A stretch of DNA of 64,000 nt, from contig NZ_JACJSZ010000002.1 in the NCBI RefSeq assembly GCF_014698445.1, positions 124,001 through 188,000 of the forward strand, written 5' to 3'. Below are positions 24,059-40,315 of this stretch, one piece after another (within the stretch, counting starts at the first letter, position 1; the number at the start of each line of letters is the position of its first letter). The stretch comes from Microcystis elabens FACHB-917. Lineage in GTDB: Bacteria; Cyanobacteriota; Cyanobacteriia; PCC-6307; Cyanobiaceae. The notes below the pieces were generated by a model that did no database searches, was not told the origin of the DNA, and saw nothing but the letters and a program-made list of their open reading frames with translations. Position numbers and translations under genes: made by a program.

Positions 24059-25333
24059 ATGCCCCTCCTCCTGAGCTGGCAGAGCACCACCCAGGCGTTC
24101 ATCGAGCCGCTGGGGAATGGAGAGACGCTCACCATGGTGCGCATTCCCGCCGGCAGCTTCCAGATGGGCTCACCCGAGCAGGAGAGCGGGCGGGATGAGG
24201 ATGAGGGTCCCGTGCATAGGGTAGAGCTGCAGGAGTTTTTGATGGCCAGCACACCGATCACTCAGGCGCAGTGGCGCGAGGTGGCGGGCTGGTCGCCACC
24301 GCTGGGCGAAACCTGGCCGCAGATTCTGCACCTGGAGCCATCCATATTTCAGGCTGGCCACACCCGCCACGGCGAGGGGGAGAGCGAGACCCAGGAGCTG
24401 CCGGTGGAGCGGATCACCTGGGAGGAGGCGATGGAGTTCTGCCGGCGGCTCAGCCGGCGCGCCGGCAGGCATTACACCCTGCCCAGCGAGGCGCAGTGGG
24501 AATACGCCTGCCGGGCAGGTGGCACGGGTGTCTATGGGTTCGGCGCCACGCTCACGGCCGAGCTGGCCACCCTGCGCTGGCCTACGGCTGTGGTGGATGG
24601 CCCCCGGGCGCTGGAGGACCAGCAGACCAGCCCGGTGCGGCTCCATCCCGCCAACGCCTGGGGCCTGCACGACATGCACGGCAATCTGTGGGAGTGGTGC
24701 CTGGATCACTGGCACTCCAGCTACCGCGGTGCTCCGCAGGACGGCAGCGCCTGGATCGATCACGGTGCCCCATCCAGCGCCGATCGGGTGGTGCGCGGCG
24801 GCGCCTGGAGCGATCCTGCCAGCGATGCCCGCTCCGCCTGCCGCTACCGCCTGCCGCCGCAATCCCGCGAGCCGGCGATCGTGGGATTGCGGGTGGTGTG
24901 TGTGCCGGGTGGGGCGGAGATCGAGCCCAAACCCCTGGTGGTGTGGATTGATGACCATCACGACAACAATCGCAGCGAGCGATCGGCGCTGGAGGCTGAG
25001 GGGATGCGTGTTGTCCTGGCCGACAGCGACGATGATGTGCTGGGCTTGCTAGCTTCAGAGTCTGTTGATCTGCTCATTTCCGACATGAGCCGGCACCAGG
25101 ATCCTGAGGCTGGCCTGAAGCTGTTGAAGCGGCTCCGAGCAGCACCGGAGAGGCCACCGGTGATGTTCTATGTGGGAGCCCAGAACGCGAACCTGGCTGA
25201 GCAGGCGAAGCTGATGGGAGCCAATGCTGTTGTCACAACGCCAACCGATTTATTGGCGGCTGTTCGAGCTGCTTTGGCCCCGCAGAAAGCCGGGCTAAAC
25301 CGCTTAAGGCAGGTGAAAGGTAAGCTGTTGTGA
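24059..25333 (+). CDS. FGE-sulfatase-like domain fused to a degenerate receiver domain
   Basis: 424 residues. Residues 15-285 form an FGE/C-type-lectin-like domain: [84 protein letters not shown]. The C-terminus (about 290-410) is a receiver-like domain with acidic pair WIDDHHD and the phospho-acceptor position LLISDMSRHQD, but the conserved Lys near the end is Thr (AVVTTPTD). The FGE half is a paralogue of the two DGR targets, yet its 3' end is not a variable repeat. It probably acts as an adaptor or sensor in the conflict complex. It is 31 bp before the TIR gene. Confidence 0.8.
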   Translation: MPLLLSWQSTTQAFIEPLGNGETLTMVRIPAGSFQMGSPEQESGRDEDEGPVHRVELQEFLMASTPITQAQWREVAGWSPPLGETWPQILHLEPSIFQAGHTRHGEGESETQELPVERITWEEAMEFCRRLSRRAGRHYTLPSEAQWEYACRAGGTGVYGFGATLTAELATLRWPTAVVDGPRALEDQQTSPVRLHPANAWGLHDMHGNLWEWCLDHWHSSYRGAPQDGSAWIDHGAPSSADRVVRGGAWSDPASDARSACRYRLPPQSREPAIVGLRVVCVPGGAEIEPKPLVVWIDDHHDNNRSERSALEAEGMRVVLADSDDDVLGLLASESVDLLISDMSRHQDPEAGLKLLKRLRAAPERPPVMFYVGAQNANLAEQAKLMGANAVVTTPTDLLAAVRAALAPQKAGLNRLRQVKGKLL

Positions 25334-25364: not shown

Positions 25365-27269
25365 GTGCCAACGCCCGCCGCTTACATCTCCTATTCTTGG
25401 GGTGATGACACCCCTGAGGGAAGAGAGCGCGAGGCGATCGTTGATGATCTCTGCCGCAGCGTTGCCAAGGCGGGGATTGTAATCGGCAGAGACAAGAATG
25501 AGGTAAAGACTGGAGATTCGATTCAGGCATTTGGTGTCCGCATTGCCCAGGCTCCAGTGATTCTTGCGGTGATCAGCTCTCGATCGTTACGCTCTCAATG
25601 GTGCATGATTTACGAACTTTATCAGGCATTTTTGCGCCGCGGGCTCTCGGGAAAAGATTTTGGCAACGATGTAGTCGCACTCGTGCTTGACGATGCCTTG
25701 GATGATCTTAATGAGGCCAACATGAAGCCCTTGCTTGAGTATTGGGATAAATGGTGCGAAGGCCTCGAGGGAGCGCTACAGCTCGCAGAGCGGCGTGGCA
25801 GGAATAAAAGCCCTGATTCAAATCAAGTTTTAGAGAGTTGCAAGGACATGATTGCATGCCTCCCAGATATGCTTCTGGCCATCAATCGCATCGCCATGCC
25901 CCGCGGCAATGCCGCGATTCGCCGCGACGACTTCAGCGCGATCATGGCTTATGTGCAGGGCAAGCTCCCCAGTGCTGCGCAGGAGATCCCCGCCCCGCCG
26001 ACTCCTGATTTAACGGCGATCCGAGCAACGCTGCAGCAGCTTTCCCTCCAGCATGCTGCGCTCACCCCGGATCAACTGCATGCCAGCTGGCATGGGGCCA
26101 TCCAGGCAACGTGGCCTCTGCAGACCTCCGCCGCCCTGTTCCCCCAGCTTGCATCGCACGTTCCCGTGCGGTGGCAGGACCTGCAACAGAGCCTGGCAGA
26201 CGCGAACCAGTGGAATCATCTTGAGATCGAGAGGATCAAGCTGCTGTTTGAACACTTCACATCACGGCTGAAGCAGCTGGCCTCGGATGCATCGCCGGAC
26301 GCCCCATCCCCGTCCACGCCAGCGTCGATACCGCCTTCGCTGGCGGTGTTGATCAGGCCCACGGGCGACAAGTCAACAGATGGGCAGGCCGCCTATCGCT
26401 GCCAGGCCGTGCTCTCCATCCCGATGGCTGGAGGAGATCGGCAGTATGAGCCGATGGAGCCAACCGCCGATCATGTGTTCTGCTTTCACCCACCTGCCGA
26501 TCGACCCGATTGGCGACCGCCGGGTGCGGTTCTGGGCAGGCTGTGGCAGGCAGCCCAGGAACGCTTGCTGGAGCTGGGCCGCCATGATCACGAGCCCCTG
26601 CTGGATCTGTTCGTGCCGCGCGCCCTGTTCGATCAGGAATGGTGGCGATTGGAGCTGGAGAATGATTCGGATTATGGCGCCTCCCTGGCCACCATCTTTT
26701 ATCGACTTCGTTCCATCGATCGCTGGACACAGCCCACCCTGCTTTTGCATCAACAACATTTCGATCGCAAACACAGTGTTCTCGCCAGCGGCGCTGGGCA
26801 TTGGCAACTGTTCACTGAGCACCATTCCAGCGATGAGATCCATCGCCAACTTCCTCTCAGCCGCACTTCCAGCTCTGGCCAGAGCGAAACCGTGGCGATT
26901 CTCCGCTTCGGCTCGATCGGGCTTGATTTTCCAGAACGGGATAGATTCTATCGCTCTGCGCTGGAATCGGCAGCGCCTGTGGTGCTCTGGTGGGATCGAT
27001 CCAGCGAGAATCATACCGCGCAGGAAAGAGCTCGCCACGTGACGCAGCTCCTGCAGAGACTCCAGCTCAACAAGCCAACCAAGAACCAGCATCACTTCCA
27101 GAAGGTGAACGGCAATCCTCTTGACCTTCATGTTCAGAAGCGGGATCTGCCCGATTCCCTGGTTGTGCTGATCGACGATCGCCTGGAGATGGATCAAGGG
27201 TCTGGGATCCCCCGTTTGATCGCAGTGGCGAAGCGGGCCCCGTCCCTCGGTTACGGAGGAAGTGGTTGA
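25365..27269 (+). CDS. TIR-domain effector with VMAP C-terminal domain
   Basis: 634 residues from a GTG at 25365 with a good ribosome site (AGGAAG at about 25350). The first 150 residues are a TIR domain: AYISYSWGDD, GRDKNEVKTGDSIQ, ILAVISSRSLRSQWCMIYELYQAF. The glutamate of the WCxxxEL motif, the NADase catalytic residue in active TIRs, is present. The middle is helical. Residues 330-625 resemble the VMAP C-terminal domain (vWA-MoxR-associated protein): LAVLIRPTGDKSTDGQAAYR, LLDLFVPRALFDQEWW, PVVLWWDRSS. In known systems VMAP couples a MoxR/vWA pair to an effector. Expected output: NAD+ cleavage and growth arrest when triggered (inference). Confidence 0.83.
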   Translation: MPTPAAYISYSWGDDTPEGREREAIVDDLCRSVAKAGIVIGRDKNEVKTGDSIQAFGVRIAQAPVILAVISSRSLRSQWCMIYELYQAFLRRGLSGKDFGNDVVALVLDDALDDLNEANMKPLLEYWDKWCEGLEGALQLAERRGRNKSPDSNQVLESCKDMIACLPDMLLAINRIAMPRGNAAIRRDDFSAIMAYVQGKLPSAAQEIPAPPTPDLTAIRATLQQLSLQHAALTPDQLHASWHGAIQATWPLQTSAALFPQLASHVPVRWQDLQQSLADANQWNHLEIERIKLLFEHFTSRLKQLASDASPDAPSPSTPASIPPSLAVLIRPTGDKSTDGQAAYRCQAVLSIPMAGGDRQYEPMEPTADHVFCFHPPADRPDWRPPGAVLGRLWQAAQERLLELGRHDHEPLLDLFVPRALFDQEWWRLELENDSDYGASLATIFYRLRSIDRWTQPTLLLHQQHFDRKHSVLASGAGHWQLFTEHHSSDEIHRQLPLSRTSSSGQSETVAILRFGSIGLDFPERDRFYRSALESAAPVVLWWDRSSENHTAQERARHVTQLLQRLQLNKPTKNQHHFQKVNGNPLDLHVQKRDLPDSLVVLIDDRLEMDQGSGIPRLIAVAKRAPSLGYGGSG

Positions 27270-27332: not shown

Positions 27333-28577
27333 ATGACCCGCTCCGGCTCCCGCACCAGCTCCAGCTCCAGCTCCAGCCAGACGACCTCGCCCTCCTGGGA
27401 CCTGTTCACCAATCTCCCCAGAACCGAGCGGGAGACAAAGGGACTTCAGCGCCAGCGGCAGGATCCCTGGCCCGAATCCCCACCCTGGCGCCGCTTTCTG
27501 CAGCCGGAGGCCGAACAGGAGAAGGCTTTGCAGAAGGTTGAGGAGGGCTATTGGCAGCAGTATCAGGAGTGGTTGGCCGCGAATCCCGGTCTCAACACCC
27601 AGGAGCGCGACCGCCTGCGCGGTGAGGTGTTCCGCCTGCCGCGAACCAGCGATGGAGCCTTGCGGCCTGAGGGTGAAGCGGTGCGTCTGGCGGTGAATGC
27701 CGCGATTCACCTCCGCCGGCCGCTGCTGGTGTCCGGCACGCCAGGCTGCGGCAAGACCAGCCTCGCCTATGCCATCGCCGAGGAGCTCGACCTCGGCCCC
27801 GTGCTGAGCTGGGATGTCACCCCCCGCAGTCAGTTGCAGGATGGCCAGTTTCTCTACGACGCCGTCGGCCGGCTGCAGGAAGCGGGCTGGAGCCATTCCT
27901 CTTCACCTTCCAATCGTAAGAACCGCGCCTCCGCAACTGCCAAGGAGCAGGACCCCGCCTCCGCAGCCGGCGCACCTGCCGAAGAGCGCCCCACCAGCGA
28001 CTATCTGAAGCTGGGTCCTGTGGGCACAGCCTTTCTCCCTTTTTCCAGGCCACGGGTGCTGTTGATCGATGAGCTGGACAAGGGCGACCTGCAGCTTCCC
28101 AATGAGCTGCTGAACCTGTTTGAAGAGGGCTTCTTCGAGATTCCCCAGCTCGTGCGCGAGGCCAGGCGTCACGCTGCTGAGCAGCCTGTGCATACCGCTG
28201 ATCCGGGTTGCACCTGGCCCGTGAGCGGCGGCAGGGTGGTGAGCCGTGAATTTCCAATCATCGTGCTCACCAGCAATGGTGAGCGGGAGTTTCCCGCCGC
28301 CTTTCATCGCCGTTGCATCCGCATCGCGATGCCCACGCCAACCCATGAAGATCTGGTGCACGTGGTGGGCGCCCACTTCAAAGCTTCGCATCAGCTTTCC
28401 GACCATGAGCTGGGCGAAGAAATCCGCCAGTTCCTTGGCGATGAGGGAAATCTCGATCGGGCCACTGATCAGCTTCTCAATGCCCTCTACCTGCTCACCC
28501 TGCAGCAGGGATCGCCCGCCAGCGAAGAGCAGCGCAGCGGTCTGCGCCAGATCCTCTATCGCCAGCTGCACACTTGA
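27333..28577 (+). CDS. MoxR-type AAA+ ATPase of the conflict system
   Basis: 414 residues. A low-complexity serine tail (1-20) and a helical segment come first. The AAA+ core has Walker A SGTPGCGKTSLAYA near 131-144, a long insertion rich in Ser/Ala (about 185-225), Walker B VLLIDELDKGD near 239-249 and sensor-1 VLTSNGEREFP. It should use ATP to remodel the vWA/VMAP partners. Its stop TGA overlaps the TTG start of the vWA-FGE gene, so the two are translated together. It differs from the housekeeping MoxR at 47519 by the insert and the N-terminal extension. Confidence 0.9.
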   Translation: MTRSGSRTSSSSSSSQTTSPSWDLFTNLPRTERETKGLQRQRQDPWPESPPWRRFLQPEAEQEKALQKVEEGYWQQYQEWLAANPGLNTQERDRLRGEVFRLPRTSDGALRPEGEAVRLAVNAAIHLRRPLLVSGTPGCGKTSLAYAIAEELDLGPVLSWDVTPRSQLQDGQFLYDAVGRLQEAGWSHSSSPSNRKNRASATAKEQDPASAAGAPAEERPTSDYLKLGPVGTAFLPFSRPRVLLIDELDKGDLQLPNELLNLFEEGFFEIPQLVREARRHAAEQPVHTADPGCTWPVSGGRVVSREFPIIVLTSNGEREFPAAFHRRCIRIAMPTPTHEDLVHVVGAHFKASHQLSDHELGEEIRQFLGDEGNLDRATDQLLNALYLLTLQQGSPASEEQRSGLRQILYRQLHT

Positions 28578-31435
28578 GCACCTCCACCGATCCCACGACC
28601 AGCCGCGCCGCAGGCCCGCCTCCGCCAGCCAGCGCGCTCTGCGAGCTGCTGGGCTGGTTGACGGCCTGGCCTCCAGCTGCGGAGACCCTCACGGGTACCG
28701 ACCTGGCCGACCTGCTGTGGCTGGCTCAAAGGATGCCAGAGGCGCCGCAGCCCGCGGCCCGAGATCCGGCCCATGATCCAGGGGAGAAGCACAAGCCATC
28801 ACACACTCCCGTCTCGGCCAGCAAGGGTTCCGCCAAGCGCGTGCCACACCCACCGCCAGAGCCCCCCGCAGACGAGCACGACCCTCCGGCCTTCTTTCCC
28901 GAGCCACCACCGGCCAGAACTCGCGAGCGGGCGGCCCAGCTTCTGCCCGATCGGGTGCTGCCCAGGCAACGGGACCTCGATGCGGCGATCGCCAGCCTGC
29001 CGGTCCGTCTGCAGACCCCGCGGCTGCTGCCGCCGGAGCGGTTCCTGCTGAATGCGCTGCGGCCCCTGATGGGGCGCATCGCTGTTGCCGACAACCAGCA
29101 GCTCGATGAGGAGGCCACAGCCGAGCGTTGGGCGCTGGAACGGCTGCCGATCCCGGTGTACCAGGGCCGCATGGAGCCTCGCTTCAGCGTGACCCTGCTG
29201 GTGGATCGCGGGCTCTCGATGGAGGTGTGGATACCGCTGGCGCGTGAGTTTCGCGATCTGCTGGTGCGTTCTGGTGCGTTCCGCGCGGTGCACCTGGTGG
29301 AGCTGATTCCACCCCGGAGCATGGAGAGCGGCGGGGCCGTGGGGCTGCGCCCCGAGGGATCGCGCCAGGTGGTGTGGAAGAGTGCTGCCATGCTTCGCAG
29401 CAGTCCGCCCCCTCTGGCCGCGGAGGCGCAGCGCAGCCTGCTGCTGGTGCTCAGCGATACGGCCGGCCCCCACTGGTGGGACGGCCTGATGTTTGAGGTG
29501 CTGGCGTCCTGGAGCGCACGGCTGCCACTGGCGATCCTCCAGACGCTGCCGCGCTGGATGGCGGAGCGCACAGCGCTGCGGGGGCTGGCGCCGGCTGAGC
29601 TCCACAACGACCAGACAGGCGCCTGCACGTCGCGGTATCGGGTGCGTGATCCCGATGGTTGGGATGACAAGCTCTCACGCGGTGGTGCCTTGCCTGTGCT
29701 GAGGCTGGATCCTGCGGCGCTGGCGCCATGGGCTGCCCTCGTGATGGGCGATGGGCGCCTGGGGCTCGGCGGCGTGCGGATCCCGGCCGAATGGACGGTG
29801 TTGCAGCAGCAGCTGGAACCGTTCCGGCCTGAGGTGCTGGCTCCGGATCGGGCGCAACCCAACAGTGCCGAGGAGCTCTGGAGGGGGTTCTGCCGCTCGG
29901 CGACCCCCGAAGCCCAGCGTCTGATGATGGTGCTGGCGGCGGCGCCGGTGTTGAGCCTGCCGGTGATGCGCCTGATCAAGGAGGCGCTGCTGCCTCCGGA
30001 GAGTGGACCGTTGCCGTTGCAGGAGGTGTTGCTCAGCGGTCTGCTGCAACCGATCGCGGCCCCAACCCACGAGCAGGGTCAACAAAGACCGAGCGATCGC
30101 TGGGAGCCTGGTTCTCCAGAATTAATCGATGTTGACGGCCTTCAGTATGGCGTCCATGCCGGAGTGCTCGAACTGCTGCGCAGCGATCTCAGCGCCACCG
30201 ACACCGTGACGGTGGTGCGGATGGTGACGGGGCTGTTGGAGCGGCGCTGGAATGCCCTGGGCACGGGCCACAGTTTTCGGGCGCTGCTGCGTGATCCTGA
30301 TCTGGAGATCGAAGACGACGATCTCAAGGGTGTGGTGAATTTCGCCACAGCCACGGCGGAGTTGATCGAGCGGCTGCCGGGCGAGGAGTACCAGCGATTA
30401 GCGCGTCAGTTGCGCGGCCGATCGCCCCAGCCCCATCGCCAAATCTGGCCGAAGTCGATGGCGTTCGTGAGCCATGGCTTCACCACCGCATGGCTTGTTG
30501 AGGTTCCCGAAATTCAAGCCGTCCGCGTGGAAACGGCACGCCTGGAGGATGTGCCCCTGCAGCCGATCGCCAACGCCGAAACCTGGGGGTTCCGTGAACC
30601 ACGGCTTGCGGCGGCCCTCACCCTCGTCGAGATCCCCGCCGGCACCTTCCTGATGGGCTCCCCCTTAGATGAACCCGAGCGATTTGCCGATGAAGGCCCC
30701 CAGCATGAGGTGACGCTGCAGAACTTCTTCATCAGCCAGACCCCGATCACCCAGGCCCAGTGGCGGGAGGTGGCGGAGTGGAGCAAGCAGCCAGCAGAGC
30801 ACTGGGGCCACGATTTGAAGCCGAACCCCTCAAGTTTCAGCGATCAATCAGACAGCGATCAGCGGCCGGTGGAGAATGTGAGCTGGCACGACGCCATGGA
30901 GTTCTGCAACCGCATGAGCCAACGCACCGGCCGCCACTACACCCTGCCCAGTGAAGCCCAGTGGGAGTATGCCTGCCGTGCGGGCAGCGCCACGCCCTTT
31001 CACTTCGGGGCCACGATCACACCAGACCTGGCCAACTACGACGGCAACACCACCTATGCCGATGGCCCCAAGGGTGTCAACCGGAAGCAGACCACACCGG
31101 TGGGGATGTTCCCGGCCAACGCCTGGGGCCTGCACGATATGCATGGCAACGTGTGGGAATGGTGCCTTGATCAGTGGCATGCCAGTTATGAGGGAGCCCC
31201 CCCTGATGGCAGTGCCTGGTTGAACACCACTCAGCCCACCAAGAAAACAACAAGAGACACAGGAAACGACAGCGACACCGAAGAAGAAGAGAGGCTGCTG
31301 CGCGGCGGCTCCTGGGGCGACGTCCCCGGGGGCTGTCGCTCGGCTTGCCGCGACCACGGCCGGCCCGGCGATGCCAGCCTCGGCGTTGGGTTCCGTGTGG
31401 TCTGCCTCCCCCAGGGCCCTTCCCTTATCGCTTAA
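28574..31435 (+). CDS. vWA-like (SAV_2336-type) protein with DGR-variable FGE domain
   Basis: 953 residues from TTG at 28574 (TTGA overlap with the MoxR stop); no earlier good ATG exists. A proline-rich N-terminus (70-130) leads to a vWA-like domain with FSVTLLVDRGLSMEVWIP (degenerate MIDAS Asp-Ser) and LLLVLSDTAGPHWWDG around 210-330, as in SAV_2336-type proteins. A helical region follows, then an FGE/C-type-lectin-like domain (about 680-953): [51 protein letters not shown]. Residues 907-947 are encoded by variable repeat VR1. The vWA part would bind the MoxR ATPase and the FGE end would be the changeable ligand sensor. Confidence 0.85.
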   Translation: MSTSTDPTTSRAAGPPPPASALCELLGWLTAWPPAAETLTGTDLADLLWLAQRMPEAPQPAARDPAHDPGEKHKPSHTPVSASKGSAKRVPHPPPEPPADEHDPPAFFPEPPPARTRERAAQLLPDRVLPRQRDLDAAIASLPVRLQTPRLLPPERFLLNALRPLMGRIAVADNQQLDEEATAERWALERLPIPVYQGRMEPRFSVTLLVDRGLSMEVWIPLAREFRDLLVRSGAFRAVHLVELIPPRSMESGGAVGLRPEGSRQVVWKSAAMLRSSPPPLAAEAQRSLLLVLSDTAGPHWWDGLMFEVLASWSARLPLAILQTLPRWMAERTALRGLAPAELHNDQTGACTSRYRVRDPDGWDDKLSRGGALPVLRLDPAALAPWAALVMGDGRLGLGGVRIPAEWTVLQQQLEPFRPEVLAPDRAQPNSAEELWRGFCRSATPEAQRLMMVLAAAPVLSLPVMRLIKEALLPPESGPLPLQEVLLSGLLQPIAAPTHEQGQQRPSDRWEPGSPELIDVDGLQYGVHAGVLELLRSDLSATDTVTVVRMVTGLLERRWNALGTGHSFRALLRDPDLEIEDDDLKGVVNFATATAELIERLPGEEYQRLARQLRGRSPQPHRQIWPKSMAFVSHGFTTAWLVEVPEIQAVRVETARLEDVPLQPIANAETWGFREPRLAAALTLVEIPAGTFLMGSPLDEPERFADEGPQHEVTLQNFFISQTPITQAQWREVAEWSKQPAEHWGHDLKPNPSSFSDQSDSDQRPVENVSWHDAMEFCNRMSQRTGRHYTLPSEAQWEYACRAGSATPFHFGATITPDLANYDGNTTYADGPKGVNRKQTTPVGMFPANAWGLHDMHGNVWEWCLDQWHASYEGAPPDGSAWLNTTQPTKKTTRDTGNDSDTEEEERLLRGGSWGDVPGGCRSACRDHGRPGDASLGVGFRVVCLPQGPSLIA
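31294..31414 (+). repeat. DGR variable repeat 1 (VR1)
   Basis: 121 bp matching the template repeat at 34304-34424. The outer 22 bp (31294-31315) and 30 bp (31385-31414) are identical. In the 69-bp core (31316-31384) there are 20 differences, and every one falls on a template adenine (20 of 25 adenines changed). It codes for the last part of the FGE domain of the vWA protein: GDVPGG-C-RSACRDHGRPGDASLG. The GC-rich 3' end is the expected initiation-of-mutagenic-homology side. Confidence 0.97.
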
Positions 31436-31507
31436 TCCATCAATCCCTCAACACTGGCTGTTGTTTAACCCTGGCTGTTGGCTTGCGGCTGTTGGCTGTT
31501 GCCCCCT

Positions 31508-31522
31508 GGCGCCGCAGGCGCC
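31508..31522. other. inverted repeat downstream of VR1
   Basis: GGCGCC, loop GCA, GGCGCC, about 94 bp after VR1. It is preceded by repeats of GGCTGTTG. The same arrangement with loop ATA occurs after VR2 (35649-35663). It may be a DGR target hairpin or a transcription terminator. Confidence 0.6.
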
Positions 31523-31613
31523 TCGAATCATTGGCGCTTTCAACGGAAGCAGCCCGGCTGCACATCTGATCGTCGAGATGGCGTCACAGCGCTGCGCTGC
31601 CGCCGGCAGCGCC

Positions 31614-31985
31614 TCAGGCTTCAGGGTCAAGCTGCCACGGCTCGAGGCCCTGTAGATCAAGGGCTTGGATCACGCTGGCGGCGATCGCCGTCAGCTCGGC
31701 AGAGGTGAGCCGGCCGAGCGGGCCCTGCAGCTGATCGGCGTGGACCGTGGTGGGCAGCCAGGTCATCACAAAACTGGCCTGGCGCAGCCCGTTGGTCTCC
31801 GTTGGTGCCAGGCGATAGGCCAGAGGGTTGCTGGCCAGGTCGCTCACTGTGCTGAGGGGAAGCACCACCCAGCGCCGCCCGTGGCGGGTGGCGGCATCCG
31901 GCGAGATCACCACCACCGGTCGCGCTTTGCTGTCGCCGAAGCTGCGGTTGCGGGGCCAGAGGTAGAGCCGGCCCCGTTCAGCCAT
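31614..31985 (-). CDS. MazF/PemK-family toxin (endoribonuclease)
   Basis: 123 residues from the ATG at 31985. It opens GRLYLWPRNRSFGDSKARPVVVIS, then WVVLPLSTVSDLASNPLAYRL and ASFVMTWLPTTV, the fold pattern of PemK/MazF toxins that cut mRNA. The start lies 8 bp inside the end of the upstream antitoxin gene, the standard antitoxin-first order. It sits between the vWA-FGE gene and the DGR, transcribed against both. Confidence 0.8.
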   Translation of the reverse strand: MAERGRLYLWPRNRSFGDSKARPVVVISPDAATRHGRRWVVLPLSTVSDLASNPLAYRLAPTETNGLRQASFVMTWLPTTVHADQLQGPLGRLTSAELTAIAASVIQALDLQGLEPWQLDPEA

Positions 31986-32223
31986 CGCCTTCGCTCGTGA
32001 GGGCCGAAAGGCCCATGGCCACGGCGGCATCGCCAGCCTCGGCCAGATCGCCACTCTCCAGAGAGGCCAGGTGGGCATAGGCCGCGTTCAGAGCGTCGAT
32101 GCGGCGGCGGGCCAACCACTGCACAAGGGCTTCGCTCACCAGGGCCGAGCGGTTGGACCCCTGAGCATCCAACTGGGCGAGGAGGCCTTCCTCCAGAGAA
32201 ATGCTGATCGAACGGTTCGCCAA
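31978..32223 (-). CDS. ribbon-helix-helix antitoxin of the MazF/PemK toxin
   Basis: 81 residues from TTG at 32223 (LANRSISISLEEGLLAQLDAQG); an ATG at 32280 would add 19 residues of unlikely sequence that overlaps promoter-like DNA. The N-terminus is a short strand and two helices of the CopG/RHH type (RSISISLEEGLLAQLDAQGS then NRSALVSEALVQWL), followed by an acidic tail that would bind the toxin. It overlaps the toxin gene by 8 bp and would also repress its own promoter. Confidence 0.7.
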   Translation of the reverse strand: MANRSISISLEEGLLAQLDAQGSNRSALVSEALVQWLARRRIDALNAAYAHLASLESGDLAEAGDAAVAMGLSALTSEGDG

Positions 32224-32361
32224 GGGACTAACAGAGAACTTGCCAGTTATCCTAATAGTGACTCCAGTCCCATTTCTCAACCCCTCGTTCGCGGCCTGGC
32301 CATGGCGCTTACCTCAGGCACGGTGAGGGATGGAGCGGGCCAGGGGACGCATCAGCCCCTT

Positions 32362-32721
32362 TCAGCCCAGCAGCTGAATCCGCAGCGGCAGGCTCAGGCA
32401 GGCACGATCTGCCTGCGACAAGTCGAGATTTCGCGTCTGGGGCCAGAGCAGGGCGGCCGTATCGGCATCCCCGGCTGAGCACGGCTCCACCGCCAGGCCA
32501 AGGGCCTGCAGCACCTCGGCTCCGTTCACTCTGGTGAACAGCGCCGATCCCAGCACGACCCGCCTCACCGCAACGGGATTGTTCCAACGCAGCCCCGGGA
32601 AGCGGCTGAAATCCCTATCATTGGAGTGTACTTCCACTTGGTTGAGTCGCAGCGGGGCAATTGCCGGCATCCAGCCACAGGATTGGGCCAGCTCATCATC
32701 CAGGGTGAGGGTGGTGCGCAT
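32362..32721 (-). pseudogene. mosaic of VapB/VapC remnants
   Basis: A single open frame of 119 residues joins unrelated toxin-antitoxin pieces. It starts MRTTLTLDDELAQ, a VapB-type antitoxin N-terminus, then shows SNDRDFSRFPGLRWNNPV, the last strand of a PIN toxin, then SALFTRVNGAEVLQALGLAVE and LWPQTRNLDLSQADRACLSL, the middle of another PIN toxin, and stops at 32362. The order is not that of any normal protein, so it is debris from deletions. It might still be expressed. Confidence 0.7.
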
Positions 32722-32835
32722 GGCTAAGCATCGTGCCTGCTCTTGTGACTTGCATCATGATGTTTTATGTGGACACGGTCAGGATGACGGGGGTGGCGGT
32801 TGGCTGGCTGTGCCCCCCGACGTGCGTCACGCCCC

Positions 32836-33210
32836 ATGCCCTCTGATGCACCCGGCTCCGCCCCCTCCACCGCCGACCTGCCGATTCAGGAGGCCACCCT
32901 GGAGCTGATCCGCTGGTTCATTCCAATCCTGCACCGCCTGCCGCGGCTGCACCGCCACGGCCTGGGCGACCGGCTGGTGGCCAATCTCTATGAGTTGCTC
33001 GAGCAGCTGGCCCTGGCCCGCTTCCAGCGTGAGCGGCTGGCGATCCTCGAACCCCTGCGCGGCCGCATCCAGCTGATCCAGCTGCAGACGCGCCTGCTCC
33101 ATGATTTCCAGCTGATCGACCTGCGCCGCTACGAGCACGCCAGCCGCCTGATCACCGCCATCGGCCGCCAGCACAGCGCCTGGCTGTCCCAGCAGCGCCG
33201 GCCCGCCTGA
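32836..33210 (+). CDS. avd: DGR accessory variability determinant (Avd)
   Basis: 124 residues from the ATG at 32836. Residues 15-115 are four amphipathic helices (ELIRWFIPILHRLPRLHRHG, GDRLVANLYELLEQLALAR, LEPLRGRIQLIQLQTRLLHD, YEHASRLITAIGRQHSAWL), the barrel-like fold of Avd proteins, basic overall. Avd binds the RT and the template RNA and is needed for mutagenic retrohoming. It is 4 bp upstream of the RT gene. A start at TTG 32800 would add 12 unlikely residues. Confidence 0.88.
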   Translation: MPSDAPGSAPSTADLPIQEATLELIRWFIPILHRLPRLHRHGLGDRLVANLYELLEQLALARFQRERLAILEPLRGRIQLIQLQTRLLHDFQLIDLRRYEHASRLITAIGRQHSAWLSQQRRPA

Positions 33211-33214
33211 GGCG

Positions 33215-34285
33215 ATGAGCGCTCCGCCCCTTCGCCACCTCTATGCCCGGCTCACAAGCTTTGCCAGCCTCCAGGCCGCCGCCCGCCGCGCCCAGCGGGG
33301 CAAGCGCTACCGCCCAGTGGTGCTGGCCTTCAACGCCAACCTGGAAGCCGAGCTGCTGCAGCTGCAGGAGGAGCTGCGCAGCTTCACCTATCAACCCGGC
33401 GCCTACCGCCAGTTCCGCATCCGCGATCCCAAGCCGCGCCTGATCAGCGCCGCCCCCTACCGGGATCGGGTGGTGCACCACGCCCTCTGCGCCGCGATTG
33501 TGCCGCCGCTGGAACGCCGCTTCCATCGCGGCAGCCATGCCAACCGGGTTGGCTACGGCAGCCACCGCGCGTTGCGCCGCTTCACCGCGGCGGCGGCCCG
33601 CCACGGCTGGGTCCTGCAGGCCGACATCCGCCTCTATTTCCCCAGCATCGATCTCACCATTCTGCGGGCCCAGCTCGCTGCAGCCATCGCCTGCCCCGGC
33701 ACCCTCTGGTTGCTGGATCAGATCCTGGCCAATGGCGCCATCTTCGGCCCGGCACTGGATGCCTTTCCCGGCGACACTCTGCTCACGCCCCTGCAGCGGC
33801 CGCGAGGGCTGCCGATCGGCAACCTCACCAGCCAGTTTCTCGCCAATCTGCATCTCAATGGGCTCGACCACTGCCTCAGTGCACTGCCGGGGGTGCGGGT
33901 CTATCTGCGCTACGTGGATGATCTGGCCCTGTTTGCGGATCATCCGGATCCTCTGGGCCGGGCCCGGGCCCTGATGGAGCAGGAGCTGGCCGCCCTGCGG
34001 CTGAGGGCCCATCCGGTGAAAACCCAGATCCGTCGCTGCCGTGTAGGCGCCAGCTTCGTGGGGTTTGTGGTGCGGCCCGGCCGGCTGCGGGTGCGCAACC
34101 ACAATCTGCGCAGCGGTCGCCGCCGCCTGAACCTTCAGCACCGAGCTGTGCTCTCAGGTCTGTTATCCGCTGAAGCCGCCCGCACCAGCCTGCTCAGCTG
34201 GAACGCCCATCTGGCCCACGGCCACACCTGGCGGCTGCGGCGCCGCCTGTTTGCGGGCCTCCCCTACGCAACCGACCTACCCTGA
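33215..34285 (+). CDS. DGR reverse transcriptase
   Basis: 356 residues. RT motifs in order: [18 protein letters not shown], the first catalytic motif [37 protein letters not shown] (200-217), YVDDLALF (233-240), then KTQIRR and [13 protein letters not shown]. The IGNLTSQ segment replaces the QGxxxSP of retroviral and group II RTs and is typical of DGR RTs, linked to adenine-specific errors. The YVDD catalytic pair is intact. The template repeat begins 19 bp after its stop. Together with Avd this is a complete DGR core. Confidence 0.95.
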
Positions 34286-34303
34286 ACCCGGGCGGGTCGC
34301 GCA

Positions 34304-34424
34304 GCTGCTGCGCGGCGGCTCCTGGAACAACAACCCCAGGAACTGTCGCTCGGCTTACCGCAACCACAACCAGCCCGACAATGCCAACAACAACGTTGGG
34401 TTCCGTGTGGTCTGCCTCCCCCAG
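34304..34424 (+). repeat. DGR template repeat (TR)
   Basis: 121 bp directly after the RT gene. Its core, 34326-34394, is rich in AAC codons (25 adenines in 69 bp) where the two variable repeats have other bases. The flanks (22 bp left, 30 bp right) are identical to both variable repeats and nearly free of adenine. It is copied from RNA by the RT with adenine errors and installed into VR1 (31294-31414) and VR2 (35434-35554). Homology with both stops after CCCCCAG at 34424. Confidence 0.97.
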
Positions 34425-34443
34425 CACCCTTCATCGACAGAGC

Positions 34444-34463
34444 CGCTGGAAGGGATTCCAGCG
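34444..34463. other. perfect hairpin just downstream of TR
   Basis: An 8-bp stem CGCTGGAA / TTCCAGCG with loop GGGA, 20 bp after the end of TR. The loop fits the GRNA tetraloop rule reported for DGR target hairpins, but here it follows the template. It could be part of the structured spacer RNA required with TR for cDNA priming, or a terminator. Confidence 0.55.
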
Positions 34464-34600
34464 GGAGATCAGGAAGGGTCCAGACCCGCTCCCGTGATCG
34501 ATCGGCTCCGCCTGTTGATCCGCACAGCGCCGGAGGGCGCCCCGCTCGCCCACGGCTCTGCCATCGGCGCCGGAACCGTGCCCTTCTTTTCGCTCCAGCC

Positions 34601-35575
34601 ATGACCGCCACCCCCGACAGCGGCCCTCGCTCTGCAGGCTTCCTGCTGCGCCAGCCGCGCCAGGTGCAGGGGTTTCGCGAACCCCTGGCGGAGGGGGTAG
34701 CCCTCACGATGCTCTGGATCCCTCCAGGTCGCTTCTGGATGGGATCACCGGAGAAGGAGCTGGGTCGGCGGGATGACGAAGGACCGCAGCATCTGGTGCA
34801 GCTGCAGGGCTTCTTCATGGGGCAGACGCCGATCACCCAGGCCCAGTGGCGGGAGGTGGCGAGTTGGCGTGAGCAAGCTGGGGAAAGCTGGGGGCGAGAG
34901 TTAGATCCGGAGCCGTCGTTCTTTCAGCCAATCCCCCATCCAAAGGCCATTAGTTTTGACGGAGAGTTCTCACTGCTGCCAGAGGAAGCCAGCAGCGACC
35001 AGCGGCCGGTGGACAATGTGAGCTGGCTGGATGCCAGCGAATTCTGCAACCGGCTGAGCCAACGTACGAGCCGCTATTACATGCTGCCCAGTGAAGCGCA
35101 GTGGGAATATGCCTGCCGCACAGGAACCTCCACGCCCTTTCACTTTGGGGCCACGATCACCCCAGGCCTGGCCAATTACGACGGCAACCACACCTATGCC
35201 GATGGCCCTAAGGGGGCCTACCGGAAGCAGACCACACCGGTGGGGATGTTTCCCGCCAATGCCTGGGGCCTGCAAGATATGCACGGCAATGTGTGCGAAT
35301 GGTGCCTGGATCACTGGCATGACAGCTACGAGGGAGCACCTTCGGATGGAAGCGCCCGGGAAAACACGACTGAGCGGAATAAGACAGTGACAAAAAAGGA
35401 ACGAAACGACAATGTGAGTGATGAAGAACGCAAGCTGCTGCGCGGCGGCTCCTGGGACGTCTCCCCCTGGAGCTGTCGCTCGGCTGACCGCGGCCGCGGC
35501 CGGCCCGGCGTTGCCTACGGCTTCGTTGGGTTCCGTGTGGTCTGCCTCCCCCAGGACCCTTCCCTTAACCCTTAA
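34601..35575 (+). CDS. stand-alone FGE-like DGR target protein
   Basis: 324 residues, one FGE/C-type-lectin-like domain without signal peptide: [70 protein letters not shown]. Residues 278-318 come from variable repeat VR2. The catalytic Cys pair of true formylglycine-generating enzymes is not evident; the fold is used here as a scaffold for variable residues. Its DNA is closely similar to the 3' third of the vWA-FGE gene and its downstream region, so it arose by duplication. It may be a second antigen-like sensor that joins the same complex. Confidence 0.88.
35434..35554 (+). repeat. DGR variable repeat 2 (VR2)
   Basis: 121 bp matching TR, flanks identical. The core 35456-35524 has 22 differences: 21 at template adenines and one T to G (35486). 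It encodes [23 protein letters not shown], with the invariant CRSA and [10 protein letters not shown] framework shared with VR1. The cell carries two independently diversified versions of the same loop. Confidence 0.97.
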
Positions 35576-35648
35576 TCCATCAATCGCTCAACACTGGCTG
35601 TTTCTTAACCCTGGCTGTTGGTTTTTAGCTGTTGGTTGTTCACCCCCT

Positions 35649-35663
35649 GGCGCCATAGGCGCC
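35649..35663. other. inverted repeat downstream of VR2
   Basis: GGCGCC, loop ATA, GGCGCC, again 94 bp after the variable repeat. The stem equals that after VR1 while the loop differs. A T-rich stretch follows at once (CGAGTTTTTTAG), so it may work as a terminator. The remaining gap to the IS66 end holds no gene. Confidence 0.6.
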
Positions 35664-35832
35664 TCGAGTTTTTTAGTCTTTTAATCGGAAACAGCTCACA
35701 CGAAAGGTTCACGGGCGTAGAGCAGCAGCACCCACCACTCCCAGCAGGTTCCGCCACCTTCTTGCTCGCCTCCGCCTTACTCCATGTCCAGCCGCCGCCC
35801 CTGCATCAGCTCAAGGAAGATCCGCAGTATGC

Positions 35833-37577
35833 GTTCAGGGGTCGGGACGCTCCGCCGCAGGACTGCACGCTGATCGTGCATCGCTGAGCGATCAAGATGC
35901 CGTTCTGGCTGTTGGCGAATTCAGAGCGCCGGCAGCAGCGATGGCATCACTCCGCCGCGGTGATGAGCGATCCAGGCCTACTCAAGGAATTTCCAGACAT
36001 CACGGCCCTGTTGCCGCAGGCTGGTGGTAACGGTGAGCAGCCGGCTGCGGCAGATCCCACCCTGGCGGGATTGGTCGCCATGACTGACTTTGCGCTGGAT
36101 GACGGCCGGCCGCAAGGCTCTCTCGGCAGCGTTGTTGGTGGGCTCGATTCCCTCAGTCTCCAGGAAGGTCCACAACGCATCAGCCACCTTCAGAAGCTTC
36201 TGGCAGGTGCGCACCGTGCTGGCCCATGGCGTTCGCTCGCCGCGCTGAATACCCAGCTCCACAACCTGCTGCAGCGTCGCTACCGCTGCGCGGAAGTCTT
36301 CGACTACAAACGCCAGCCGGATCGGCCTGCACTCCTGTTGCAAGGCAAGCCAGTCGATCGTTCCGTCCTTGTAGCGGTGCCACTGCTCAAAGAGCTGGTG
36401 CTGCAGCTCCAGCAGCTGGGCGCCGAACCCAGCGTTGGCATCGGAGCGCTCAGCGATGGCGGTGAGATCACGGATCAGATGGGCCACCCACAGCTGGCGC
36501 TGCTGGCTGGGCAGGTGGTTGTAAGCCGAGAAGCGATCGCTCACCACGATCCCGCCAAAGCCGGGGCCCAGCAGTTCGGTGGCTGCTGCCGCTGAGCGGC
36601 TCAGGCCCTGCAGAAACACCGTCACAACCGGAGACATACACGCCCACAGCCAGCCGCGCCTGCCGGTGGGATGACGGCCCACCGCTGCGCGCAAGACTTC
36701 GTCTACGGTATTGCCGGTGGGGGCGCCGGTTTCATCCACGTCAACCACCGGCTGCTGCCGCAAGGCCCGATGGGCTGCTGTGGTGGGCTGCTCCAGCGCT
36801 GAACTCACCCGCTGCAGGCTCCTGACGATCGACGCCCGCGACAGCGTGACCCCCAGCACCTGCTGCAGCAGCGCCTGACTCCTGCTGATGCTCAGGGGGA
36901 AGGCAGCCCCCAGCAACGCGATCAAGGAACTGAGCCTGGGGCCGTAGCGGCTCACGTCCACAGCCGCCGGCAATGGCGCACAGGTGCTGGTGGAGCAGCA
37001 GGGGCACACCAACCGGTGCAGCCGATGCTCAATCACCACTGGCGTGATCGGCGGGATCTCAATCACCTGATGCCGCACGGGCGCTGGATCCTCGCCGTGC
37101 AGCAAGGTGCCGCAGCAGCGGCAGGCGTTGGGGTGGTGTTCCACCACCTCATTCACCCGCTCGATCGGCAGCAGCTCCGGCCCTGATCCGGGATGGCCCG
37201 GCTGGCCGCCGCGCTTGCGGCCGCTGCCCTTCCGCCGCTCGGGTGGTTTAAAGCCAGGCCCATCACTGGAGGGCGGTTTGGAGGAGTTGCGCGAGCTGCG
37301 GCCGATCTGCTCGCGCAGGCTGGCCAGCTCGGTTGCCAAGGCGGCGAGCTGGACGCGGAGCTCATCGTTCTCCTGCCTGAGAGCCTGAATCTCCTGCTGC
37401 TGAACGAGGATCAGCGTTCTGACGCTGGCTGGTGTGGCCAGCCAATCCGCTTCTGGAATCCCGGCAGGAGGGCTGCTCATCACAGGCGGTCTCTGCCTGA
37501 GATAAAACCGGGAATCAAGCTGTCGTCAAGGGTTCAGCAGGGCTGAAGTTCGAGATGAGCCATCTCGCCCCCTGAAC
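35833..37577 (-). mobile_element. IS66-family insertion sequence (borders tentative)
   Basis: The IS66 transposase lies between two short inverted repeats: 35833-35847 (GTTCAGGGGTCGGGA) and the complement of 37563-37577 (GTTCAGGGGGCGAGA), 13 of 15 identical. No convincing 8-bp target duplication was found next to them. Only the transposase gene is present, without the small tnpA/tnpB helpers of larger IS66 members. Confidence 0.6.
35978..37483 (-). CDS. IS66-family transposase (TnpC type)
   Basis: 501 residues. An N-terminal coiled coil (about 20-60, QQQEIQALRQENDELRVQLA), a basic segment SRNSSKPPSSDGP, a zinc-finger-like part CRCCGTLLH and CPCCSTSTC, then the DDE domain with VDVDETGAP, VVSDRFSAYN and EPTNNAAERALRP. 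The protein ends at WKFLE followed by TAG, perhaps slightly shorter than relatives. It probably moved in after the FGE gene duplication, since it lies downstream of the VR2 gene and its 3' repeat block. Confidence 0.9.
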   Translation of the reverse strand: MMSSPPAGIPEADWLATPASVRTLILVQQQEIQALRQENDELRVQLAALATELASLREQIGRSSRNSSKPPSSDGPGFKPPERRKGSGRKRGGQPGHPGSGPELLPIERVNEVVEHHPNACRCCGTLLHGEDPAPVRHQVIEIPPITPVVIEHRLHRLVCPCCSTSTCAPLPAAVDVSRYGPRLSSLIALLGAAFPLSISRSQALLQQVLGVTLSRASIVRSLQRVSSALEQPTTAAHRALRQQPVVDVDETGAPTGNTVDEVLRAAVGRHPTGRRGWLWACMSPVVTVFLQGLSRSAAAATELLGPGFGGIVVSDRFSAYNHLPSQQRQLWVAHLIRDLTAIAERSDANAGFGAQLLELQHQLFEQWHRYKDGTIDWLALQQECRPIRLAFVVEDFRAAVATLQQVVELGIQRGERTPWASTVRTCQKLLKVADALWTFLETEGIEPTNNAAERALRPAVIQRKVSHGDQSRQGGICRSRLLTVTTSLRQQGRDVWKFLE

Positions 37578-38154: not shown

Positions 38155-38457
38155 ATGGGAACGCTGATCAACTTCACAACTGAGCAGACCTCCTCGGGCT
38201 CGTCTGCCTCAGTTGATGTTGTTGGCGCGCCAGAGGGCGCTGCGGCGCGGCAGCGTCTGATCCAGCAGGTGGAGCTGCTGCTGCGCGAATCAGGCAGCAG
38301 CGAGCCGTTTGAGACCGCCGCCTGGGTCGACCGCTGGTTGCGGCGCCCCAACCATGCCCTGGGCGGATCCACGCCCGAGATCTATCTTCACACCCCGGAA
38401 GGGGAGGCCGTGCTCGCCCGCCTGATCGGCGCCATGGCGGCCGGTTCCTACCTCTGA
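38155..38457 (+). CDS. MbcA/ParS/Xre-type antitoxin
   Basis: 100 residues. The C-terminal toxin-binding domain (DUF2384) is clear: FETAAWVDRWLRRPNHALGGSTPEIYL then TPEGEAVLARLIGAMAAGSYL. The DNA-binding N-terminus seen in longer family members is missing or reduced. Its stop is 10 bp before the RES gene, the normal order for Xre/RES pairs. It should neutralise the RES toxin by covering the NAD+ pocket. Confidence 0.82.
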   Translation: MGTLINFTTEQTSSGSSASVDVVGAPEGAAARQRLIQQVELLLRESGSSEPFETAAWVDRWLRRPNHALGGSTPEIYLHTPEGEAVLARLIGAMAAGSYL

Positions 38458-38467
38458 TTCGGCGGCG

Positions 38468-39469
38468 GTGAGCGAGGCGATCAGCAGCTGGCGCATCGCC
38501 AGCCCGGGCCTCACCTGGACGGCAAACGACCTCAGCGGCAAGGGCTCCGCCCGCCATCCGGGGCGCTGGAACTCCCTGGATCGGCCGATCCTCTACAGCT
38601 CCAGTTCGATCGCCCTGGCCTGCCTGGAAACCGTGGTGCATCCGGCCGGCGATGATCCGCTGCCGTTTCAACGGCAACTGGTGCGCATCACTATCCCCCG
38701 CCAGCACTGGGAGCAGCGCCGTATTTTTGCCGTGGAGGAGCGCAGCGATTGGCACCTTCCCCCCACCCTGGAGACCGCCGAGCACTGGCTCGCCACCACC
38801 CGCGCCTGGGGCGATGCCTGGTTGCAGGGCCTGGAATCGCTGATCGCCGAGGTGCCTTCGGTGATCGTGCCGGAGGAAAGCAACCTGCTGCTCAATCCCC
38901 TCCACCCAGCCCATCGGGAGGTGGTGGCCGAGATCGTGCGCCCCTGGGTCTACGACGCCCGTCTGCTGCCCGCCCCACGGGGCGCCATCCCCCAGGCGGG
39001 GCCGCCCTGGCAGCAGCCCCTCGGGGGAGGTGTGGCTCTGGAGATGGTGCCGATCCCGGCCGGGGAGTTCCTGATGGGCTCGCCAGACGATGAACCAGGG
39101 CGGCTCGATAACGAGGCCCCCCAACATCGAGTGCGGCTGGCGCCCTTCTCCCTGGCCCGCATGCCGATCACCCAGGCCCAGTGGCGGCAGCTGGCGCTCT
39201 GGCAGCCGGCGGCGGGAGAGCCTCCCTGGGAGCGGCAGTTGAACCCCGAGCCTGCCTGCTTCCAGAGCGGCCAGCCCGCGCACCGCCGCGTACTCCTCCT
39301 CCCCGATCGGCCGTTCGGCGGCCCGGCTCAACGCCTCCCGTGCCGAACCATTGCCCATCGTGCTGCCGTCCGGGGGGAGCACCTCCATCAGCAGGTCGCC
39401 CAGGTCCTCCTCGGCCGCGCTGGGGGATGGGCTGGCGGCCGAATCGCTCACAGGCACCTGGACACTTGA
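38468..39469 (+). CDS. RES-domain NAD+-degrading toxin fused to a truncated FGE domain
   Basis: 333 residues from GTG 38468. Residues 5-165 are a full RES domain: SSWRIASPGLTWTANDLSGKG, HPGRWNS, ILYSSSSIALACLETVVH, VPSVIVPEESNLLLNPLHP. RES toxins break down NAD+. Residues 185-268 match the first third of an FGE domain ([43 protein letters not shown]) and homology then stops at about 39270. The remaining 65 residues are the antisense of a different gene fragment. A gene fusion by deletion is likely; it may still act as a toxin because the RES part is whole. Confidence 0.8.
   Translation: MSEAISSWRIASPGLTWTANDLSGKGSARHPGRWNSLDRPILYSSSSIALACLETVVHPAGDDPLPFQRQLVRITIPRQHWEQRRIFAVEERSDWHLPPTLETAEHWLATTRAWGDAWLQGLESLIAEVPSVIVPEESNLLLNPLHPAHREVVAEIVRPWVYDARLLPAPRGAIPQAGPPWQQPLGGGVALEMVPIPAGEFLMGSPDDEPGRLDNEAPQHRVRLAPFSLARMPITQAQWRQLALWQPAAGEPPWERQLNPEPACFQSGQPAHRRVLLLPDRPFGGPAQRLPCRTIAHRAAVRGEHLHQQVAQVLLGRAGGWAGGRIAHRHLDT
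39270..39457 (-). pseudogene. N-terminal fragment of a methylase-like protein
   Basis: The minus strand starts with ATG at 39457 and reads DLGDLLMEVLPPDGSTMGNG, then SAREALSRAAERPIGEEEYAAVRGL, a winged-helix-like segment of a kind seen in restriction-modification proteins. After about 60 residues the homology ends at the same point where the RES-FGE frame loses its own, so this is the other side of a rearrangement joint. Identification is tentative. Confidence 0.35.
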
Positions 39470-39588: not shown

Positions 39589-40032
39589 TCACGGCAGAAC
39601 CTGCAGCAGCAGCGAATCGGGCGGCTCGATCAGGGGATTGACCACGCGCACGCCGCGCCAGCTGAAGCCGGGGTGAAGGTCTTCCGTGAGCAGCAGACGG
39701 GCACCACCCTCCGCCGCCACGTTGAGCACCAGGGCATCCCAGCTGGCCACCTGATGGGCCACGCACAGATCCATGGCGCCACGCCAGGCAGCCGGGGTGG
39801 ACTCCAGCACCGCAAAGGCATCCATCCAGCCCAGCACCGCCTCCTGGGCCTGCAGGGCTGATCGTCCGGCCTTGCCGGTGAGCACCCGGAACAATTCACC
39901 GAGGCATTGCAGCGGGATCACCAGATCGGCCTCGCTGAGCTGATCCAGCAGCTGGCGGGTGCGGCTCACGCGAGCCTCATCCCCGAAGCCTTCCGCATAG
40001 ACCAGCAGGTTGGTGTCGAGCGCTGCGCGCAT
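39589..40032 (-). CDS. PIN-domain toxin (VapC-like RNase)
   Basis: 147 residues. Opens AALDTNLLVYAEGFGD with the first acidic residue; further PIN acids appear in LGELFRVL, SWDALVLNVAAEGG and LLTEDLHPGF, followed by VVNPL. Such toxins cut tRNA or rRNA with Mg2+. Its start overlaps the stop of the upstream Phd-type antitoxin (TGATG), so the pair is one operon. It forms the right edge of the accessory island, before pgk. Confidence 0.85.
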   Translation of the reverse strand: MRAALDTNLLVYAEGFGDEARVSRTRQLLDQLSEADLVIPLQCLGELFRVLTGKAGRSALQAQEAVLGWMDAFAVLESTPAAWRGAMDLCVAHQVASWDALVLNVAAEGGARLLLTEDLHPGFSWRGVRVVNPLIEPPDSLLLQVLP

Positions 40033-40277: not shown

Positions 40278-40315
40278 GGCAGGGGAATCGACTCGCGGGT
40301 CGGACACAGCCGTCG

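Follow-up and report, generated by a model that had tools for sequence, protein, structure and literature searches.

A stand-alone FGE gene behind the template repeat of a picocyanobacterial DGR looks like an old, position-conserved second target

Cyanobacterial DGRs have been described with several targets per DGR, with CLec-only paralogues and with target duplication, and DGRs were reported absent from Synechococcus and Prochlorococcus spp. (Vallota-Eastman 2020, PMC7517822). Here and below, earlier work is cited from selected parts of the respective papers. Within the classification of Dore (2024, PMC10907252), clade 5A holds short CLec-only plus long targets, clade 5E is almost exclusively multicellular (63/64, 98%), and the DGR targets of ternary systems are proposed to be antigen sensors. 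Most cyanobacterial VMAP ternary systems are linked to DGRs, and their FGS domain is treated as an effector (Kaur 2020, PMC7159879). As far as these papers are drawn upon here, CLec-only second targets and DGR-linked ternary systems are therefore already described (PMC7517822, PMC10907252, PMC7159879). In the phage DGR BPP-1, a hairpin or cruciform 3' of the variable repeat (VR) is required for efficient homing, and phage DGR hairpins have 7-10 bp stems, GRNA loops and a distance of 4-34 bp (PMC3240598). The BPP-1 spacer 3' of the template repeat (TR) folds, recruits RT-Avd and primes cDNA (PMC12875486).

The window, i.e. the whole stretch of DNA that was analysed, covers 64 kb out of a 3.68-Mb draft genome in 121 contigs. 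Since the genus also includes Cyanobium sp. FGCU6 (L033), the host is a picocyanobacterium. The locus starts with an FGE domain fused to a response-regulator receiver domain, as assigned by Pfam (24059..25333, plus strand as all genes below unless stated otherwise); this gene is also present in L032, L033 and L034 and gave no match in the DNA search of the genome with the TR. It is followed by a TIR - VMAP-C protein of 634 aa (25365..27269; VMAP-C 27.9 bits with a cut-off of 27, TIR_2 24.9 bits and thus below its cut-off of 28) and an AAA ATPase of 414 aa (27333..28577; Pfam AAA / AAA_5) that is MoxR-type by neighbourhood. The next gene (28574..31435) encodes the fused target, in which an N-terminal SAV_2336-type region precedes a C-terminal FGE domain (FGE1) with VR1 (31294..31422, plus strand). 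A Pfam search with its N-terminal 659 residues gave no match, vWA included, and the region matches NCBIfam SAV_2336_NTERM with 306 bits (cut-off 200); the vWA label given to this protein in the earlier note was based on neighbourhood. A PemK-type toxin with a probable antitoxin lies on the minus strand between VR1 and bAvd (31614-32280). Then come the accessory protein bAvd (32839..33211, Pfam bAvd, exact start uncertain), the DGR reverse transcriptase (RT) of 356 aa (33215..34285, RVT_1 match), the TR with its adenine-rich codons (34304..34424, plus strand) and, directly 3' of it, a structured RNA (34423..34525, plus strand). The stand-alone gene FGE2 (34601..35575) encodes 324 aa with FGE-sulfatase as its sole Pfam match (E 5.9e-51), and beyond it an IS66 transposase starts at 35978 on the minus strand. 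Further on, 38155-39469 holds an Xre/MbcA/ParS-type antitoxin and a RES toxin domain to which the beginning of an FGE domain is fused; this FGE domain breaks off, and a PIN / Phd-YefM pair comes next (39589-40418).

VR2 occupies the 3' end of FGE2 (35434..35562, plus strand). Comparison of its 115-nt core with the TR shows changes at 21 of 26 adenines and at 2 of 89 other bases; for VR1 these values are 20 of 26 and 1 of 89. Such near-exclusive change at adenines is the signature of a DGR. The 30-nt IMH-like end, at 35525-35554 (plus strand) in VR2, has exactly three copies in the genome, namely in TR, VR1 and VR2. The base that follows it is G in both VRs of the window (CAGG) and C in the TR (CAGC), and this contrast is kept in most relatives compared, though not in one VR of L040. 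In BPP-1, VR and TR also differ at the IMH end. Searching the genome at the DNA level with the TR led to four places: the TR itself, VR1, VR2 and, on another contig, the TR that belongs to a second DGR. The TR is adjoined by the RVT_1 and bAvd matches, and the RT reading frame contains IGNLTSQ, which we take to be the GxxxSQ-type motif of DGR-type RTs. FGE2 is thus almost certainly a genuine target of the adjacent DGR, and its description in the earlier note as a second, stand-alone target that lacks the vWA part stands.

Nearest solved relatives of FGE2 by sequence include PvdO (E 2.1e-29). The DGR protein 2y3c of Treponema denticola matches with E 2e-13 (best single stretch 2e-4), and in this alignment the VR of FGE2 pairs with the C-terminal part of 2y3c. 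The catalytic cysteine pair of formylglycine-generating enzyme would presumably lie in the stretch that is VR here, which makes formylglycine-generating activity of FGE2 unlikely. An AlphaFold2 model built on 19 aligned FGE sequences reached a mean pLDDT of 58.6, with the VR mostly below 50; this was too poor for a surface to be mapped, and the model was discarded.

The two VRs are diversified independently, as was claimed before from the window sequence. VR1 and VR2 differ in 12 of 15 adenine-bearing codons (counted by eye), and in an 80-nt stretch with 25 template adenines they have the same letter at 9 of these, where their composition leads one to expect 10.2 if they are independent. The same holds more widely: among 25 within-locus pairs from 17 loci with at least two VRs, 219 of 646 sites were identical against 212.8 expected. 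Single pairs fell below 0.05 in L043 (P 0.019) and L073 (P 0.034), with 1.25 of 25 expected to do so, and one pair of L034 gave 0.053. Invariance of VR2 across strains, named in the earlier note as a refuting result, was not seen in near-relative pairs that served as stand-ins for strains of the window's species. Their stand-alone VRs vary mainly at adenines. In the comparison of L073 with L074, 15 of 28 adenines and 1 of 52 other bases differ (16 of 300 bases do so upstream); the counts are 19 of 29 and 1 of 51 for L076 and L079, and 15 of 25 and 3 of 55 for the window and L033.

The location of FGE2 is shared with other DGRs. We scanned 46 DGR loci (the window, L005, L032-L043 and L073-L104; L042 is apparently non-cyanobacterial); no TR was found in L037, L039, L042, L083, L085 and L090, and L038, L086 and L096 have calls that look doubtful. 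A VR-bearing FGE gene directly 3' of the TR, from here on the post-TR gene, is present in 15 of the 46. Its VR starts 1004-1246 nt past the RT stop in 14 of these 15 loci and at 1698 nt in L036. L035 and L090 also have an FGE gene in this place, with a contig end or without a TR found. On the RT tree (44 rows, with the RTs of L043 and L085 dropped) the post-TR trait requires three changes when five unclear loci are set aside and six if those count as lacking it. Since the same place behind the TR is used in 15 of 46 loci, FGE2 looks like an old, position-conserved second target and not like a recent copy of the fused gene, as far as gene order and trees can tell. The post-TR gene is not essential to the DGR, as 23 of 37 comparable loci are without it.

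The conservation extends beyond the coding sequence. Past the stop codons, the fused gene and FGE2 are 87% identical over the first 55 nt. The match in downstream DNA that had been taken as part of a duplication is therefore real but not special to this pair, since the same 55 nt have a mean identity of 90% (minimum 80%) among 11 of 12 targets from five genomes. The twelfth, the stand-alone gene of L034, lost the flank, and all 66 pairs have a mean of 84% and a minimum of 54%. Judged by these alignments, the downstream match of roughly 130 bp represents a conserved flank of the target site, with a GC-rich hairpin, GGCGCC-NNN-GGCGCC, at its end. Behind VR1 the hairpin reads GGCGCC-GCA-GGCGCC without a T run (31508..31522) and behind VR2 GGCGCC-ATA-GGCGCC followed by a T run (35649..35663), both on the plus strand. 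The pattern CTGGCGCCNNAGGCGCC has exactly three copies in the 3.68 Mb, every one 3' of a DGR VR. As the best-scoring inverted repeat is not always the homologous hairpin, a fixed stem pattern was counted instead: CGCC-N3/4-GGCG stems of at least 5 bp were found in 41 of 60 VR flanks (all loci except L038) compared with 25 of 1200 control stretches taken within these loci. Post-TR VRs have the pattern in 9 of 15 cases; those without it belong to L034, L036, L076, L079, L091 and L092, and of these L036, L076 and L079 have another stem. Outer stem pairs vary in a compensatory way (G-C/G-C, T-A/C-G, C-G/T-A, T-A/G-C, T-A/A-T), and the loop reads GCA or GAA in 26 of the 41 hairpins. The distance from the IMH-like end to the hairpin is about 78-131 nt in picocyanobacterial loci; since this is greater than in phage DGRs, the equivalence of the two kinds of hairpin is one that we infer. 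The ATA loop at VR2 differs from the commonest GNA type, and it might lower homing there.

A simpler reading of the hairpin is that it is a transcription terminator only, with no bearing on homing. Five T residues do follow within 16 nt behind 30 of the 41 hairpins, and the VR2 hairpin scores as a terminator, yet with two sites in the region such predictions are not above shuffled sequences (mean 2.8). Against this reading, the T run is absent in 11 of the 41, including the VR1 hairpin, the stem remains at VRs although it varies by compensatory pairs, and BPP-1 needs such an element for efficient homing (PMC3240598). We therefore consider a role in termination only unlikely, and prefer to see the hairpin as part of the target site whose stem may double as a terminator. 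Within 31200-35900, no promoter-like site was found.

Directly 3' of the TR, a second conserved element was examined in the flanks of 33 of 38 TRs (all but those of L033, L043, L078, L086 and L088). It consists of three helices, with standard pairs in 93.9% of 749 pair cells; slid versions of the 33 flanks gave at most 49.1%. Both sides have changed in 17 of 23 pairs, and pairing is weaker in the third helix (82.8%). In a search of the window this RNA did not reach the gathering score of any Rfam family, and when E values up to 1 were allowed, 34250-34640 yielded nothing but a low miRNA match on the opposite strand. A covariance model of the element found two copies in the genome, both at DGRs. 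Within the genus it detected the element in 9 of 42 genomes, and in a phylum sample in 16 of 117. By analogy, this RNA is most likely the counterpart of the BPP-1 spacer, i.e. the RNA that would bind RT and Avd and prime cDNA synthesis. It lies between the TR and the second target because the RT is upstream of the TR. We also considered that the TR might be read as protein, with translational coupling to FGE2. In five picocyanobacterial loci the frame through the TR (34131-34604 in the window) continues from the end of the RT without a stop until one that overlaps the start of FGE2; this is not so in nine other loci, and L102 gave no motif. This candidate was rejected, because the differences behind the TR show no codon-position bias (68/77/80 in the four loci of equal length), so that the stretch is probably not coding.

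Based on these elements, we propose the following role for the locus. RT and bAvd would bind the structured RNA 3' of the TR, the RT would copy the TR with errors at adenines, and the mutated cDNA would overwrite VR2 and, separately, VR1. FGE2 would then be a free, variable ligand-binding subunit of the TIR-VMAP / MoxR-type / SAV_2336(vWA)-FGE conflict system. As a second receptor it would broaden the sensing range of a single cell, with the N-terminal, position-specific portion of the FGE domain (see below) as the likely contact surface, and sequence exchange would let both receptors share bodies. A MoxR-like gene is found nearby in all 14 loci with a post-TR gene but in 10 of 23 without one (Fisher 0.0003; 37 loci, after leaving out L042 and 8 of the other 45 loci because of a short contig or a TR that was not found), and vWA-region matches in 11 of 14 and 5 of 23, respectively (Fisher 0.0016). 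When relatedness is allowed for, 2 to 4 independent pairs remain for the MoxR association and none is significant, so the association is a hint. That FGE2 could be the sensor subunit of the TIR-VMAP/MoxR-type system is held tentatively, with somewhat less than even confidence, and our preference for a sensor over an effector view of the FGE domain is likewise an interpretation.

Free FGE2 could also be a decoy or competitor that dampens the fused sensor, either by titrating ligands or by occupying the sensor's partner. The protein is indeed a bare domain without effector or adaptor, and the MoxR-like gene alongside in all 14 testable loci would suit this role as well. The VRs, however, are independent of each other, which would make FGE2 a poor decoy for the ligand of VR1, and we regard dampening as rather improbable compared with a receptor of its own.

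The relation between the two targets is complicated by recombination. In six picocyanobacterial loci, namely the window, L032, L033, L034, L036 and L043, the first ~65 FGE residues of the post-TR genes form one clade (97/98), with the motif WIPPGRFW where fused genes have xIPAG[ST]F[LF] (one with ILAG); L040 and L041 fall outside this clade in a tree of 65 columns only. For the remaining FGE domain, both a post-TR clade (p-AU 0.0012) and a fused clade (p-AU 5.5e-5) of the six loci are rejected. Both trees were made from 16 of the 19 rows of alignment A2. Their conflict arises because the targets exchanged sequence: phylogenetically, the FGE sequence past the first ~65 residues is exchanged between the targets of these six loci, while the first residues stayed apart by position. 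In the window itself, an alignment of both genes, proposed earlier as a way to find the boundary of a duplication, gave a mosaic instead of a single boundary, with a break in the fused gene near 30730-30840. Before 30730, informative sites of FGE1 favour the fused copy of L033 by 34 to 6, and at 30840-31165 they favour the stand-alone copy of L033 by 40 to 23 (Fisher 1.7e-6 for left versus middle; breakpoint statistic reached in 0 of 2000 permutations). Conversely, the fused copy of L033 resembles window FGE2 at 30820-30920 by 25 to 4. For window FGE2 the left-versus-middle contrast is not significant (Fisher 0.72), but the breakpoint statistic is (0/2000). In the window, it looks as if the exchanged tract came from the stand-alone gene into the fused gene, a direction that is uncertain with few genomes compared. 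Several genomes are MAGs or drafts (L033, L034 and L036 are not labelled MAGs), so assembly errors at repeats may exist, and the RT of L043 is internally deleted, so its targets may be inactive.

The stand-alone gene might also be mainly a reservoir of diversified FGE bodies recombined into the fused sensor, like the silent cassettes of antigenic variation, and both the mosaic in FGE1 and the L033 tract speak for it. On the other hand, the stand-alone gene keeps a full ORF, no VR is shared between the targets, and the direction of exchange is based on few genomes. Moreover, window FGE2 and the L033 stand-alone gene are less identical at third codon positions (68%) than overall (79%), so the FGE2 protein itself seems to be selected. 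That the gene is mainly a donor is thus quite unlikely. Joining receptor and donor, one may imagine a receptor diversified in two layers, in which RT hypermutation would vary the tips and recombination would shuffle the FGE bodies, with the N-terminal ~65 residues kept apart as docking part; the stand-alone gene would then act as a receptor and at the same time supply tested bodies to the sensor of a cell-death-type system. We offer this extension as doubtful.

Recombination also bears on the origin of FGE2. DNA homology between the fused gene and FGE2 runs from ~30590/34675 to ~31556/35697, with 75% coding-base and 61% third-codon-position identity upstream of the VR and 86% over the 129-nt VR block. 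On the FGE tree (55 domains, VR removed; rows of L035 and L038, the partial L034 target and all rows of L005, L103 and L104 dropped) the post-TR trait changes nine times, at least eight of these on supported branches, because the two targets resemble each other in many loci. The label is still clustered, since shuffled labels gave a mean of 13.2 changes and were as low in 1 of 500. As the RT and FGE trees have different rows, the contrast between their change counts is only indicative. Window FGE2 groups with FGE2 of L033 in this tree (99/94) and in a second tree without L035_FGE1 and the partial L034_FGE0 (97/86), in which a sister relation between window FGE1 and FGE2 was weakly rejected (p-AU 0.037). 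A recent local copy of the fused gene's 3' third and downstream DNA, set behind the TR in this lineage, would explain why homology spans the FGE domain and ~130 bp (at most 91% per segment) and, if repeated, why the targets are sisters on the FGE tree in several loci (L091 100/100, L102 99/97), but given the gene order common to 15 loci, the six-locus clade in the N-terminal part, the grouping with L033, the rejected sisterhood and a downstream identity not above that between genomes, we hold it very improbable, and the local duplication proposed in the earlier note is largely refuted for this genus. We consider it fairly probable that the explanation as a whole is correct, i.e. that FGE2 is an old second DGR target with exchanged bodies and would act as a free receptor subunit of a conflict system.

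The same genome carries a second DGR (G000:C56, locus L005, 9040-14856, minus strand) with bAvd, an RT that is 66% identical, a TR and the same hairpin pattern and RNA element. Its target has 1119 aa with a C-terminal FGE domain and is NACHT/STAND-like by eye. Among 17 loci with the RNA element that were examined, 10 have a VR (including L111 with a broken RT) and 7 do not. Several are RT-less cassettes (L105, L106, L107, L110, L113, L115, L116, L117 and L121), composed of an FGE target, its own TR and the RNA element, with no RT match within the 6-10 kb examined. VR and TR differ at 12 of 18 adenines and 0 of 62 other bases in L106 and at 11 of 18 and 0 of 62 in L117; weaker cases such as L121 have 10 of 17 and 7 of 63. 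These cassettes may be served in trans or be relics. In Cyanobium sp. FGCU6, a third VR-bearing target is a TIR-FGE fusion (L033, 14060-15736), the flank of which closely resembles that behind VR1 of the window. The PemK-type toxin beside it has 97% protein identity to that of the window, and as two PemK-type copies (one split) lie downstream of this target, the toxin may travel together with the 3' ends of targets.

Antigen sensing for bacterial conflict systems has been proposed for DGR-diversified FGE proteins, which raises the question of whether the two members of a target pair are redundant or distinct components. In a picocyanobacterium, a putative free receptor that is conserved, diversified on its own and equipped with an N-terminal part specific to its position makes this question testable. 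The covarying RNA and the VR-flank hairpin provide sequence handles for finding DGR parts genome-wide, RT-less cassettes included, and the RNA is usable as a marker for cyanobacterial DGRs. In the selected parts of the cited DGR literature we found neither an exchange between targets that leaves an N-terminal part separate, nor the covarying RNA, nor the presence of two DGRs within a single picocyanobacterial genome.

Compared with known systems, the target site resembles that of BPP-1 as described in part by Guo (2011, PMC3240598), with a hairpin downstream of the VR. Unlike the phage DGR hairpins reported there, the hairpin here has a 6-bp stem and a 3-nt, mostly GNA loop at a distance of ~78-131 nt from the IMH-like end in the picocyanobacterial loci. 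The structured RNA directly 3' of the TR recalls the BPP-1 spacer RNA as presented in PMC12875486, from which it differs in having three covarying helices and in its location between the TR and a second target. As in the VMAP ternary systems outlined by Kaur (2020, PMC7159879), a TIR-VMAP-C protein, an AAA ATPase and an FGE-bearing third component are adjacent; unlike in those systems, an extra FGE-only target lies behind the TR, and vWA was not detected by Pfam. With the clade-5/5E DGRs, as characterised in the cited parts of PMC7517822 and PMC10907252, the locus shares C-terminal CLec/FGE targets, multiple targets, CLec-only paralogues and MoxR/vWA/TIR genes. Related RTs were found in 8 of 42 species genomes of the Cyanobium-containing genus, which is at odds with the near-restriction of clade 5E to multicellular cyanobacteria that is reported in the corresponding part of PMC10907252.
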